Below are positions 5,723 through 60,696 of a DNA stretch of 64,000 nucleotides, one piece after another. Position 1 is the first letter of the stretch; the number at the start of each line of letters is the position of its first letter. The notes under the pieces are model-generated. The model saw nothing but the letters and a program-made list of their open reading frames with translations, did not search any database and was not told where the DNA came from. This stretch comes from Deltaproteobacteria bacterium (GTDB lineage Bacteria > Desulfobacterota > Binatia > UBA9968 > JAJDTQ01): NCBI GenBank assembly GCA_026712905.1, contig JAPOPM010000223.1, positions 62,001 through 126,000 on the forward strand, given 5' to 3'. A program made the translations under genes and the position numbers.

Positions 5723-5745
5723 GTCATTCCCGCGGAAGCGGGAAT
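5723..5745. repeat. palindromic dispersed repeat, copy 1
   Basis: CGTCATTCCCGC, a GAA-containing loop and GCGGGAAT form an 8-bp perfect stem. It abuts the stop codon of the ImmA/IrrE gene and lies before the cupin operon. A near-identical copy occurs at 60670-60696. Repeats of this type (ATTCCCGCG...GCGGGAAT) are widespread in bacterial genomes. There is no T-run, so a terminator role is unproven. Confidence 0.8.
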
Positions 5746-6558
5746 CTACTCACTTGCTCCCCGGGGGGCGAACAGATCGAGCTGTCCCGGCGCCGCGGCC
5801 GCGCGCCGCCGGCGCCTCGAGACCGCGGTTCCTGCTGTCTTGAAGAACATCAACAGTACCTTGTTCAAACGGACATAGTCGCCCCGGTAGGTCTTGCCGC
5901 TCGCCGGATGCGTGTAGGTGACCGGCCCGTCGTTTCGTTGCGCCAACTGTCGCACGAACGGCAGGTCGCCATCAAGGATGTGGCCGGATTCGAACGGAAG
6001 ATCGAAGCCGAAAGTGCGCGGCGCGGCGGAGAGTTCCAGGCTGCCGTCGTCCTGCTGCCGCCAGACCAGCAAGGCGCCCGTGACCTTTCCCACGTTGAGC
6101 ACGCGCCAGCCGGTGGCCTCGAGCGAGCACTGGAACCGCGTCGCCAAGCGCCGGAAGCCGGCCACGTCCAGGTCCGGCGTGACCGCCGCGTTGACGAAAC
6201 GGCCGGGCATCAGCAACTCCGCCGCCACCCGGTTGCACAACTCCTCGGTGGGGCCGTCGCCGCAACTCATGGACCCGTTCTCGTGGGCGGCGACGAGTAG
6301 GTGGCCGATTTCGTGGGCCAGGGTGAAGCGCCGGCGCGTGTGCGGCGCGTTGCGGCTGAGGATGACCTCGTAGTCGCCGTCCCCGAGTTCCACGAGCTGG
6401 CCGTCGAGCCGTATGTCCAATTCCCGTATGCGTCCGATGCCCACATGCCGCGCCAGCCGCACCAGATCCACCGGCGCGCGCTCTATGGCACAGTCATCGA
6501 GGAGCCGGCCGGCCGCCTCCAGGACACGGTGCGCCCGGCCTGTGGTCTCCTCGCTCAT
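5746..6558 (-). CDS. ImmA/IrrE family metallo-endopeptidase with C-terminal clamp-binding motif
   Basis: A 270-residue zinc protease. The HEIGH motif is at residues 82-86 (TLAHEIGHLL) and the third ligand is Glu105 or Glu106 in TEELCNRVAAELLMP, both typical of ImmA/IrrE. Relatives cleave XRE-type repressors: ImmA cuts ImmR to derepress an integrative element, and Deinococcus IrrE cuts DdrO to induce DNA-damage genes. Residues from about 120 form an extra domain without an obvious DNA-binding helix. The tail is basic (SRRRRR) and then carries QLDLF at 259-263, an exact match to the bacterial sliding-clamp-binding consensus QL[SD]LF. The gene follows ku by 36 bases on the same strand, suggesting co-transcription and a DNA-repair role. 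No XRE repressor is encoded in the window. Confidence 0.9.
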   Translation of the reverse strand: MSEETTGRAHRVLEAAGRLLDDCAIERAPVDLVRLARHVGIGRIRELDIRLDGQLVELGDGDYEVILSRNAPHTRRRFTLAHEIGHLLVAAHENGSMSCGDGPTEELCNRVAAELLMPGRFVNAAVTPDLDVAGFRRLATRFQCSLEATGWRVLNVGKVTGALLVWRQQDDGSLELSAAPRTFGFDLPFESGHILDGDLPFVRQLAQRNDGPVTYTHPASGKTYRGDYVRLNKVLLMFFKTAGTAVSRRRRRAAAAPGQLDLFAPRGASE

Positions 6559-6594
6559 GTCGGTGGATGCTGGCGGGAAGGCGCGCCGGAGCGG

Positions 6595-7704
6595 TCAGTA
6601 GCGTTCCCAGTCCCGCCCGGTCAGAGGGATGCGGGCAGCCTTGAGCTTCTTGGGCGCGTCGCCGAAAAGGTCCGGGTCGGAGCGGATGACCTCCAGGTCC
6701 TTGCGCAGGTTCACGACTTTGGCGCGCACGTCGCCGGCGACAAGCTTCTTGCGCTTCTTGAGGGACGCCAGCCCGCTGAAGCTGCGTTTCAATTCGGCGG
6801 CGCCCACCTCCAGACCGGACTCGCCCACCGCCGTCTGGAACTCCTCGAAGGTGACCTCGGCCTCGACCGCCGGCGTCTTGGGCGTGCGCGCGGCCTGACG
6901 CGCCGGCCGGGGCTTGGCCTTGGCCGCGCCTTCGTGCTGGCCGAGGCTTGCCTTGAGGGCTTCCATCAGGTCCACGACCTGGCTCTGACGCACCTGCGGC
7001 TCCAGCGCCGTGACCTCCTTCCCCTCCACCTTCTGCTCCACCAGGCGCAGCACCCGTTCCTTGTACGCGTCGTGGTAGTTCTCCGGGTGGAACTCCTTGC
7101 GTACCAGCTCGTTGATGAGGCGCACCGCCAAGTCCAGCTCGCCGTCCTTGATCTGGACCGTCTGGCCGCGCTCGATCTCGTCGAAGTCGCGCACCTCGTC
7201 CGCGTAGTACATGGTGTGCAGCATGAGTCCGCCGCGCACCGCGCGGACCAGCACCAGCCCTTCCTTGCCACGCATCACGTACTTGGCGAGCGCCACGTGG
7301 TTGGACTCGGTCATGGCGTCGGCCAGCAGGCGGTAGGCCTTGTCGCCGCCCTTGTCGGGCCCCAGGTAGTAGGTCTTCTCGAAGTAGACCGGATCGACCT
7401 TTTCCAGCGGCACGAACTCTTCCAGCTCGATCACCTTGGACGTCTCTTCCTCCAGGGCCTTGAGCTCGTCGTTCTCGAAGCGGACGTATTCGTTCTTGGC
7501 GAACTCGTAGCCGCGCACCAGGTCCGAACGCTGCACCACCTCCTCGCACACGGGGCAGAACTGCTGCTGCTTCATGCGCGAGCCGCACTTGTTGTGCAGG
7601 AAGTTGAAAGCGACGCCGCCGGACGATGCCGCGGTGTAAAGCTTGATGGGGATGGATACCAGGCCGAAGGAAATGGTCCCGGAACTGATGGCGCGTGCTG
7701 CCAT
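6595..7704 (-). CDS. ku: Ku protein, non-homologous end joining
   Basis: A 369-residue bacterial Ku homologue. It begins MAARAISSGTISFGLVSIPI, the family N-terminus, and contains the core barrel segments (FCPVCEEVV, YEFAKNEYV, YYLGPDKGGDKAY, LMLHTMYYADEVRD). Ku homodimers thread onto broken DNA ends and recruit LigD. GGAGG upstream fixes the ATG at 7704; an 18-codon longer reading is possible but lacks support. At 369 residues it exceeds the usual 260-320. The extra C-terminus (after about residue 270) includes a proline/lysine linker, an acidic-to-basic segment and a KKRKK cluster, ending GRDWERY. Such tails modulate DNA binding. It is divergent from ligD with 98 bases between starts. Confidence 0.97.
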   Translation of the reverse strand: MAARAISSGTISFGLVSIPIKLYTAASSGGVAFNFLHNKCGSRMKQQQFCPVCEEVVQRSDLVRGYEFAKNEYVRFENDELKALEEETSKVIELEEFVPLEKVDPVYFEKTYYLGPDKGGDKAYRLLADAMTESNHVALAKYVMRGKEGLVLVRAVRGGLMLHTMYYADEVRDFDEIERGQTVQIKDGELDLAVRLINELVRKEFHPENYHDAYKERVLRLVEQKVEGKEVTALEPQVRQSQVVDLMEALKASLGQHEGAAKAKPRPARQAARTPKTPAVEAEVTFEEFQTAVGESGLEVGAAELKRSFSGLASLKKRKKLVAGDVRAKVVNLRKDLEVIRSDPDLFGDAPKKLKAARIPLTGRDWERY

Positions 7705-7740: not shown

Positions 7741-7770
7741 TTGGAGTTTACCACGCAATACCCTTAGAAT
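7741..7770 (+). promoter_or_regulatory. candidate ligD promoter
   Basis: TTGGAG (7741-7746) and TAGAAT (7765-7770) are separated by 18 bases in the short ku-ligD divergent region. The -10 box matches five of six consensus positions; the -35 is weak (only TTG conserved). Initiation near 7777 would leave a leader of about 25 bases to ligD. Confidence 0.4.
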
Positions 7771-7802
7771 TCCATACGTTATGCACAGTCCGGAGAATGG
7801 CC

Positions 7803-10319
7803 ATGGCCGCGCCGCTGGATGAATACCGGCGCAAGCGCGATCCCGAGCGCACCCCGGAAGCCTTCGGCGCCCACGGTTCGTGGCGCGGCGGCCTGTTCGT
7901 GGTGCAGCAGCACGCCGCCCGGGCGATGCACTACGACCTGCGCCTGGAGATGGGCGGCGTGCTCAAGAGCTGGGCCGTTCCCAAGGGCCCGTCGGTGCGC
8001 TCCCACGAGAAGCGCCTCGCGGTGCACGTGGAAGACCACCCCGTCGAATACGCCGACTTCGAGGGCGTCATCCCCAGAGACAACTACGGCGCCGGCGCCG
8101 TCATCCTGTGGGACCAGGGCTCCTACCGGCTGCTCCACGCATCGGACCCGCTCCAACAACTCGAAAAGGGCACGTTGGAAATCGAGCTCCAGGGCTACAA
8201 GCTGCGCGGCGTGTGGATGCTCGTGCGCATGGGACGGGGCGACAAGGAGTGGCTGCTGTTCAGCAAGGACGGGGCCGAGGCGGGCGCGGAGCCGGTGGAG
8301 GCGTTGCCCGCCTCCATCCTGTCCGGCCTTACCGTGGCGGAGCGGCGGGACCCGCGTTCGCGCCTGGCCCGTCTCGATCGGGCGCTGAAGCGCATGCCGG
8401 CCCCGGCGGCGGGGAGTGGGCGCAAGCCGAGACCGATGCTGGCCTCCCTCGGCACGGCGCCTTTCTCGGATCCCGGATGGCTCTTCGAGATCAAGTATGA
8501 CGGCGTCCGCGTTCTCGCCCGGCGCCGTGACGGCGCGGTGACCCTATTGGGGCGCAAGGGCGACGACGTGACGCTGCGCTATCCGGAGATCGTCCACGCA
8601 CTGAACAAGGCCGCCCCCACCGACTTCCTGATCGACGGCGAGATCGTCGCCATGGACGAGGACGGCCGGCCGAGCTTCCAGCGCCTGCAGCGGCGCATGC
8701 ACCTGAACAACCGCTTCGACATCGAGCAGGCGGCGCGGACGGTGCCCGTGCGCGGCTTCTTCTTCGACTGCCTGGAGGCCGAAAAGAGGGACCTGCGTGC
8801 CGTGCCCCTGGCGCAAAGGAAGCAGTGCCTTTCCATGTTCGTGCCGGAGCGCGGCCTGGTCCAGTACACGGAGCATATCCCGGAGCGCGGAGAGGAGTTC
8901 TATCACGCCGCCGCGGCGAACCACCTGGAAGGCATCATCGCCAAGCGCGCGGACAGCCGCTACAGCGCCGGGCGCTCGCGCGATTGGCTGAAGTTCAAGT
9001 GCCGCAAGCGCCAGGAGTTCGTCATCGGCGGCTACACCCAGCCCGGGGGTACGCGCCCGCTTTTCGGCGCGCTGCACCTGGGGCTCTACCGCGACGGTGC
9101 GCTGGAGTACGTCTCCAAGGTGGGCACGGGCTTCGACCGGAAGACCCTGGGCGCCGTGCACCGATGGCTCCAGGAACTGGAACGCGAGGACTCCCCTTTC
9201 CCCGCGGGATCGCCCGCGGGCAGAGCGCACCGGTGGGTGGAGCCCCGGCTGGTCTGCGAGGTGGAATACACCGAGTGGACGAAAGACGGCGGCCTGCGCC
9301 ACCCGTCCTTTCTGGGCCTGCGCGACGACAAGGCGCCGGAGGATTGTCTCCGTGAAGATCCGCCGGAAGTCTCCACCGGCGGCGCGGCGGAAACAAGCGC
9401 CGCGCCGCGGCATCCCGCGCCCGCGCAGCTCGCCCTCACCAACCCGGACAAGGTGTTCTGGCCCGAGGACGGCTACACCAAGAGCGACCTCATCGACTAT
9501 TACACGGCCATCGCGCCGTTCTTGCTGCCCTACCTCCGGGACCGCCCGCTGGTGTTGACGCGTTTTCCCGACGGCATCCACGGCAAGTCGTTCTTCCAGA
9601 AGGACGCACCGGATTTCGTTCCCGACTGGGTCGCCACCCGGCGCATCTACTCCAAGGACGCGGAGCGCGACATCGACTACTTCATCGTCAACGACACGGA
9701 CAGCCTGCGCTACGTGGCCAACCTCGGCACCATCCCGCTGCACATCTGGGGCAGCCGGCTCGATTCCCTGGAACACCCCGACTGGCTGGTGCTGGACCTG
9801 GACCCCAAGGGAGCCCCGTTCACACACGTCGTGCGCGTGGCGCGGGAGCTCAAACGTATCCTGGACGGGCTGGAGATCGCCTCGTACGTCAAGACCTCCG
9901 GCGCCACCGGGCTCCACATCCTGGTGCCCATGGGACGGCGCTACCTCTACGAACAGTGCCGCACCTTCGCGCGCCTGCTGGCCATGGCGGGCACGCAGGC
10001 GCTCCCCGACATCGCCACCGTACAAAGGCCGCTCCACGCCCGCGATGGCAAGGTCTACATCGACTTCGGCCAGAACGGCTACGGCCGCACCATCGCCGCG
10101 CCCTTCTCGGTGCGGCCACTGCCGGGCGCGCCGGTCTCCTGCCCGCTGCGCTGGTCCGAGGTGACCGCGAAGCTCGACCCCGGACGCTTCACGATCAAAA
10201 CGGCACTCCGACGCTTCGCAAAAAAGGCGGATCCGCTGTTGCCGGTGGTGGACGCGCCCGGCATCGACATGGTCGACGCGCTCGGGCGCATGGACACCCT
10301 GTTCAGGAAGAAGGTGTAA
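7803..10319 (+). CDS. ligD: ATP-dependent DNA ligase LigD (phosphoesterase-ligase-polymerase)
   Basis: Non-homologous end-joining ligase of about 838 residues with all three LigD domains in the Pseudomonas order. The N-terminal 3'-phosphoesterase covers about 20-160 (FVVQQHAARAMHYDLRLE, HVEDHPVEYADFEG). The ligase core covers about 210-520, with the nucleotidyl lysine in FEIKYDGVR. The C-terminal primase-polymerase runs from about 540 (LTNPDKVFWPEDG, GKSFFQKDAPDF, LVLDLDPKG with the catalytic aspartates). GGAG at 7792-7795 lies seven bases before ATG 7803 but only one before ATG 7797, so 7803 is preferred. It works with the divergent Ku to trim, fill and seal double-strand breaks. It is convergent with the VOC gene after a 14-base gap. 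Confidence 0.97.
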   Translation: MAAPLDEYRRKRDPERTPEAFGAHGSWRGGLFVVQQHAARAMHYDLRLEMGGVLKSWAVPKGPSVRSHEKRLAVHVEDHPVEYADFEGVIPRDNYGAGAVILWDQGSYRLLHASDPLQQLEKGTLEIELQGYKLRGVWMLVRMGRGDKEWLLFSKDGAEAGAEPVEALPASILSGLTVAERRDPRSRLARLDRALKRMPAPAAGSGRKPRPMLASLGTAPFSDPGWLFEIKYDGVRVLARRRDGAVTLLGRKGDDVTLRYPEIVHALNKAAPTDFLIDGEIVAMDEDGRPSFQRLQRRMHLNNRFDIEQAARTVPVRGFFFDCLEAEKRDLRAVPLAQRKQCLSMFVPERGLVQYTEHIPERGEEFYHAAAANHLEGIIAKRADSRYSAGRSRDWLKFKCRKRQEFVIGGYTQPGGTRPLFGALHLGLYRDGALEYVSKVGTGFDRKTLGAVHRWLQELEREDSPFPAGSPAGRAHRWVEPRLVCEVEYTEWTKDGGLRHPSFLGLRDDKAPEDCLREDPPEVSTGGAAETSAAPRHPAPAQLALTNPDKVFWPEDGYTKSDLIDYYTAIAPFLLPYLRDRPLVLTRFPDGIHGKSFFQKDAPDFVPDWVATRRIYSKDAERDIDYFIVNDTDSLRYVANLGTIPLHIWGSRLDSLEHPDWLVLDLDPKGAPFTHVVRVARELKRILDGLEIASYVKTSGATGLHILVPMGRRYLYEQCRTFARLLAMAGTQALPDIATVQRPLHARDGKVYIDFGQNGYGRTIAAPFSVRPLPGAPVSCPLRWSEVTAKLDPGRFTIKTALRRFAKKADPLLPVVDAPGIDMVDALGRMDTLFRKKV

Positions 10320-60669: not shown

Positions 60670-60696
60670 CGTCATTCCCGCGAAAGCGGGAATCCA
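60670..60696. repeat. palindromic dispersed repeat, copy 2
   Basis: CGTCATTCCCGC, a GAA-containing loop and GCGGGAATCCAG, nearly identical to 5723-5745 (one base different in the loop). It lies in the 165-base gap between sufT and lysS, where no gene is seen. Confidence 0.8.

Follow-up and report, generated by a model that had tools for sequence, protein, structure and literature searches.

A PprI-type metalloprotease encoded beside Ku, with a putative sliding-clamp motif at its C-terminus

Introduction

Why would a metalloprotease of the ImmA/IrrE family be encoded directly behind Ku, and why would it end in a peptide that resembles a ligand of the DNA sliding clamp? The question is raised by a 64,000-nucleotide stretch of DNA from a Deltaproteobacteria bacterium (Desulfobacterota; Binatia; assembly GCA_026712905.1, contig JAPOPM010000223.1, positions 62,001 to 126,000 of the forward strand), called the window below. 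An irrE-like gene (5746..6558, minus strand, 270 aa) lies 36 bp downstream of ku (6595..7704, minus strand, 369 aa), and ligD (7797..10319, plus strand, 840 aa) diverges from ku, with start codons 92 bp apart. An initial annotation made from the sequence alone had described this arrangement, assigned the protease to the ImmA/IrrE family and noted a QLDLF peptide at residues 259-263 behind a basic linker. The open reading frame coordinates, the Pfam score and the translation bear out all three statements.

The answer that we favour, tentatively and short of an even chance as a whole, is a clamp-docked protease, activated by single-stranded DNA (ssDNA), that acts on the Ku module. A zinc protease of the PprI/IrrE type would be produced together with Ku, presumably by co-transcription, and its flexible basic tail, ending in a QxxLF-type peptide, would dock it on the sliding clamp. 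ssDNA probably switches the protease on, as it does PprI and CapP. At clamp-loaded DNA, either at forks or during repair synthesis, the enzyme would then cut a protein locally. Its target may be the Ku complex, with the Ku C-terminal arm as first candidate, because a clamp tag suits a target that is bound to DNA nearby, and because the gene paired with irrE encodes a Ku with an unusual arm. The outcome would be a Ku that is disarmed or released where end joining is harmful or complete. Confidence differs among the parts of this account. Docking by the tail is probably real, and a function tied to end joining is just as probable; that Ku itself is the substrate is doubtful.

A conserved ku-irrE pair

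The ku-irrE pair is real, conserved and unusual. The ku product matches PF02735 and NCBIfam Ku_bact (TIGR02772, 298.5 bits against a cut-off of 150), and its divergent neighbour encodes a LigD with the Pfam domains PE, ligase and PrimPol, in that order. The irrE gene follows ku in every one of the nine genus genomes (G000-G008) and in G033, a genome from another family (42% identity), and the spacing across these ten genomes is 19-37 bp. Synteny within the genus extends over the whole neighbourhood, with ubiD at one end and NUDIX at the other. In G033 the neighbours are wholly different and no ligD is nearby; the pair therefore stands on its own there. A tree of the Ku core clusters G033, the genus and a further family, f3, with an internal order that is unresolved, so that one origin of the pair and its transfer are indistinguishable. 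Searches of viral contigs, phages and plasmids returned M78-domain matches only and no full-length homologue of the IrrE-like protein, and coverage of its relatives was thin beyond the phylum. At the far end of the pair, a repetitive extragenic palindrome-like sequence, CATTCCCGCGNAAGCGGGAATC, abuts the 3′ end of irrE (5725-5746); a second copy lies at 60673-60694 in the window.

A PprI-type protease and its possible switch

By sequence, the irrE product belongs to the ImmA/IrrE family. It matches PF06114 (Peptidase_M78; 3.8e-13) with 49.7 bits against a curated cut-off of 22, and its HExxH site is intact, reading HEIGH at residues 82-86 (6301..6315, minus strand). H82, E83, H86 and E105 are invariant across ten homologues, and E105, within TEELCN, is the probable third zinc ligand. 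Four cysteines (C23, C99, C108 and C144) are likewise invariant in the ten and may form an extra metal or redox site.

AlphaFold2 (AF2) predicts a protease domain at about residues 1-130, helix-turn-helix (HTH)-like helices at 132-155, a GAF-like domain at 161-243 and a disordered tail at 244-270. The best model has a mean predicted local distance difference test score (pLDDT) of 80, and the tail falls below 50. A Foldseek search places Deinococcus geothermalis PprI with ssDNA closest in the PDB (8sln; E 7.3e-12, 20% identity), followed by IrrE (3dte) and CapP (7t5t); M. tuberculosis regulators are also among the top matches. Structural alignments with 8sln and 3dte cover 250-257 columns at template modelling (TM) scores of 0.64-0.66. 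As modelled, the protein is of the PprI three-domain type, with protease, HTH-like and GAF-like parts in that order. ssDNA activates D. geothermalis PprI via Arg85, Arg207 and Arg267, and CapP is also ssDNA-activated (PMC10904395). R75 of the IrrE-like protein aligns with Arg85, which belongs to the essential ssDNA patch, and is invariant; the counterparts of the GAF residues Arg207 and Arg267 are not placeable without coordinates. In a search of defence libraries, the best match was the PADLOC capP model (2.5e-23).

An enzyme of this type could operate as a classical IrrE switch. DNA damage would then lead the protease to cut an unlinked XRE-type repressor, thereby derepressing ku-irrE, ligD and other genes, and the clamp tail would only position the protease near ssDNA. 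This is a serious contender, if a doubtful one. It has precedents in PprI-DdrO and CapP-CapH (PMC10904395), the capP match agrees with it, and a candidate operator exists. The stretch that separates the diverging starts of ku and ligD holds a conserved block with a T[AG]GAATTCTAA palindrome (7745..7783, minus strand), which is kept in all nine genus genomes. The block is possibly an operator or promoter shared by ku and ligD, in the genus only; a promoter scan gave no match. However, the palindrome was not found upstream of ku in G033, and no repressor gene adjoins irrE in the regions viewed, although no genome search for a DdrO-like repressor was made. Nor does a diffusible repressor offer any obvious reason for a clamp tag.

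The C-terminal motif

It is this tag that points the clamp-docked model toward the replication machinery. QLDLF (5770..5784, minus strand) follows a basic linker, RRRRR, and is preceded by SRRRRRAAAAPG. In the beta-clamp consensus QL[S/D]LF, positions 1, 4 and 5 matter most (PMC3919608); the consensus has been generalised to QxxLF (PMC12926913). The initial annotation had looked to the literal QL[SD]LF as the feature to be kept at the C-terminus of ku-linked homologues. In that form the expectation failed, since the exact consensus is present in one species only and was rejected as a conserved feature; positions 1, 4 and 5 of QxxLF nevertheless hold in nine of the ten. Q259 and L262 are invariant in all ten proteins and F263 in nine. 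The tail reads QLDLF in the window's species, QRELF in three close relatives, QGELF in five others and QGKLGF in G033. Every genus member thus has Q-x-[DE]-L-F, in agreement with the QxxLF rule and within a tail predicted to be disordered, and exact QLDLF is a derived form particular to the window's species.

How much of this could arise by chance? The expected number of QL[SD]LF words is about 3e-4 per 270-aa protein, 2e-5 per 20-residue tail and about two per whole proteome, and a QLDLF/QFDLF-type DNA word occurs four times in the genome, no more commonly than a reversed control. Taken by itself, then, the exact motif is little evidence. On the aligned tails, what stands above chance is the C-terminal position together with the conservation of Q-x-[DE]-L-F in all nine genus members, not the exact word. 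Shuffled tails yield a motif of this type at about 1e-4 each, mean conservation is 62% in the linker columns (244-258) and 86% in the motif, and the motif codons differ synonymously between relatives.

An internal yardstick is provided by ImuB. A mycobacterial ImuB clamp motif, 352-QLPLWG, has been tested (PMC10421592), and the corresponding position in ImuB of the genus holds QGELF in all nine genomes (L092-L100). ImuB of five f3 genomes has QLRLF at the same site (L152-L154, L157, L151), and DnaE1 carries QFGMF at its usual clamp site. Because of its position in an orthologous ImuB, QGELF is apparently an accepted clamp word in the genus. The same pentapeptide, under the same QxxLF rule, stands in the tail of five of the IrrE proteins of the genus; in ImuB the motif is internal, after the little finger, whereas in IrrE it sits at the extreme C-terminus. 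This match sustains the earlier proposal that the motif is of the clamp type.

Clamp-like C-termini also appear to recur in a second, distantly related PprI-type family. Three proteins, found as weak matches, join an M78 protease to a middle domain and a macro or macro-like domain. They end in QFELF (L021:673-2016(-)), QLDLPY (L033:673-2103(-)) and QSDLF (L036:1381-2766(+)), and their IMG/VR relatives end in QLELL (L165:2995-4332(+)) and EADLFA (L166:3001-4320(+)). The macro domain exceeds the Pfam cut-off only in L165, with a weak match in L021. As the sample is small and non-random, the pattern is a lead only. On the two IMG/VR contigs the protease-macro gene is directly followed by a fused AAA/adenylosuccinate-synthetase-like gene and a DUF7002 gene (Pfam-tested in L165; L165:4354-6629(+)), a three-gene cassette with the same order in L166.

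These data also bear on another explanation, in which the C-terminal QxxLF either is no clamp motif or goes unused, and an ordinary IrrE-type regulator lies next to ku through inherited synteny. The restriction of exact QLDLF to a single species, the control-level frequency of such words (about four per genome) and the full synteny of the genus neighbourhoods would all fit. We nonetheless consider it quite unlikely. Q259, L262 and, in nine of ten, F263 are held fixed within a tail whose linker varies, the ImuB clamp site of the same genomes has the identical QGELF, the pair is retained in G033 despite a different neighbourhood, and a second M78 family also has clamp-like C-terminal peptides.

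The Ku extension and the substrate

If the protease is clamp-docked, what might it cut? Bacterial Kus with a long C-terminus, such as those of M. tuberculosis and B. subtilis, consist of a core, a minimal C-terminus (VDLMEALKxSL) and a species-variable extension (PMC9638933). The Kus of the ten irrE-bearing genomes are 366-373 aa long and carry a C-terminal extension of about 85 aa, which in the window spans residues 280-369 (6598..6867, minus strand) and is predicted to form a three-helix bundle with an end helix. This extension, a feature that the initial annotation did not include, accompanies irrE: it is on 10/10 Kus with an adjacent irrE and on 0/20 other Kus of the class (283-296 aa, with no such irrE alongside). 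Among the genomes searched, Ku with the extension occurs in two families only, both from a single order. Its last peptide, LKAARIPLT[AG]RDWERY (6598..6645, minus strand), differs between the two families at a single A/G position, against an identity of about 46% over the remainder of the extension; since the codons differ synonymously, the peptide is kept at the protein level. The extension has no PDB match at E <= 0.001, belongs to no Pfam or NCBIfam family and was found in no plasmid or viral contig. Residues 343-347 (6664-6678(-)), a low-confidence segment of the extension, are DP[DE]LF in genus members, and G033 has QPSLL at this place (L054); the likeness to a clamp motif may be fortuitous or may mark a second contact with the clamp.

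When 148 genomes of the class were searched with a profile, the extension also appeared in three f3 genomes that lack irrE, as stand-alone proteins of 185-198 aa (L127:4963-5556(-), L128:5628-6182(-), L129:1131-1709(+)). These Ku-arm proteins combine an HlyU-like N-terminus (a weak match), the Ku minimal C-terminus and an extension ending in R-I-P-[LV]-[ST]-x-R-x-W, and align with Ku residues 242-366 at 32% identity (BLASTP, E 1e-15). One of the genes lies near ligD with an S1/P1 nuclease in between, and one of the genomes, G030, has no Ku above the class search threshold of 1e-15. A strict tie between the extension and IrrE was rejected on these grounds. The extension is thus a Ku-arm module, perhaps one that serves LigD or DNA ends, and is not solely a target of IrrE. 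As the module occurs apart from irrE, Ku becomes a less likely substrate.

Further points tell against a clamp-docked protease that acts on Ku. Nine of the ten ku-irrE adjacencies count as one event because the genus is fully syntenic, and the tenth comes from a metagenome-assembled genome, G033, with an estimated contamination of 9%. The exact clamp consensus is lost in every relative, and the five AF2 models disagree, with mean pLDDT values of 80, 65, 64, 61 and 49. The existence of Ku-arm proteins without irrE implies that the extension has some other job. Clamp binding and Ku cleavage are both inferred from sequence, and the substrates known to us for this protease family, none of them Ku, are all repressors or regulators of the XRE type.

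That the protease acts at the fork on something else, for instance a protein crosslinked to DNA, LigD or a regulator bound to DNA, with Ku only a partner, is a slim prospect: a clamp-type tail on a predicted ssDNA-activated metalloprotease would, by analogy, follow the logic of SPRTN, which is reported to be required for crosslink repair and replication (PMC6637133), but Pfam and the structure search show no relation in sequence or fold to SprT-type proteases, and the tight ku pairing points to an end-joining role.

Implications

In its boldest form, the clamp-docked model would have a clamp-tethered, ssDNA-activated PprI-type protease cleave or remove Ku, SPRTN-like, at forks or after joining, as one case of a wider use of C-terminal clamp docking that includes the protease-macro proteins. 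We regard this form as unlikely. IrrE-type proteases are known to us only as repressor cutters, and how bacterial Ku is restrained, and removed after joining, is to our knowledge an open question. In the open-access literature searched, which included the topics of macro domains, end joining, LigD and proteolysis of bacterial Ku, no title or abstract described an IrrE-type protease that is encoded with Ku or bears a clamp motif. If the model is true, a clamp-tagged protease paired with ku couples end-joining choice to the replication machinery. Should PprI-type proteases in general carry such a C-terminal tag, this would supply the missing rule for how these enzymes locate damaged DNA.

Comparison with known systems

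The Ku of this locus shares its plan of core, minimal C-terminus and variable extension with those of M. tuberculosis and B. subtilis, and differs in that its extension is a predicted folded domain without a PDB match and with a near-invariant end peptide. CapP of the cyclic oligonucleotide-based antiphage signalling system (CBASS; 7t5t) has the same M78 fold and belongs to an ssDNA-activated family. No CapH or CBASS genes stand beside irrE, whose neighbours in the genomes viewed are ku, ligD (except in G033) and metabolic genes; the locus is therefore not a CapP system.

SPRTN has a PCNA-binding motif. It is a DNA-activated metalloprotease at the replication clamp, and its likeness to the IrrE-like protein is one of analogy only: sequence and fold are unrelated, M78 is the only Pfam family above cut-off, and no SprT-like protein appeared among the top structures, which were PprI, IrrE, CapP and the M. 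tuberculosis regulators. The nearest counterparts are PprI/IrrE of Deinococcus (3dte, 8slm, 8sln), which share the order of M78 protease, HTH-like and GAF-like domains and the HExxH site, and align best in structure, over about 250 columns. At 19-21% identity, the protein described here differs from them in its clamp-type tail and its ku-paired gene, and no ddrO partner adjoins irrE (no genome-wide repressor search was made). Finally, ImmA of mobile elements (ImmR/ImmA) is likewise encoded only a few bases behind the gene presumed to be its partner. The irrE gene, however, is chromosomal and on no detected mobile element, and its partner is Ku instead of a repressor.
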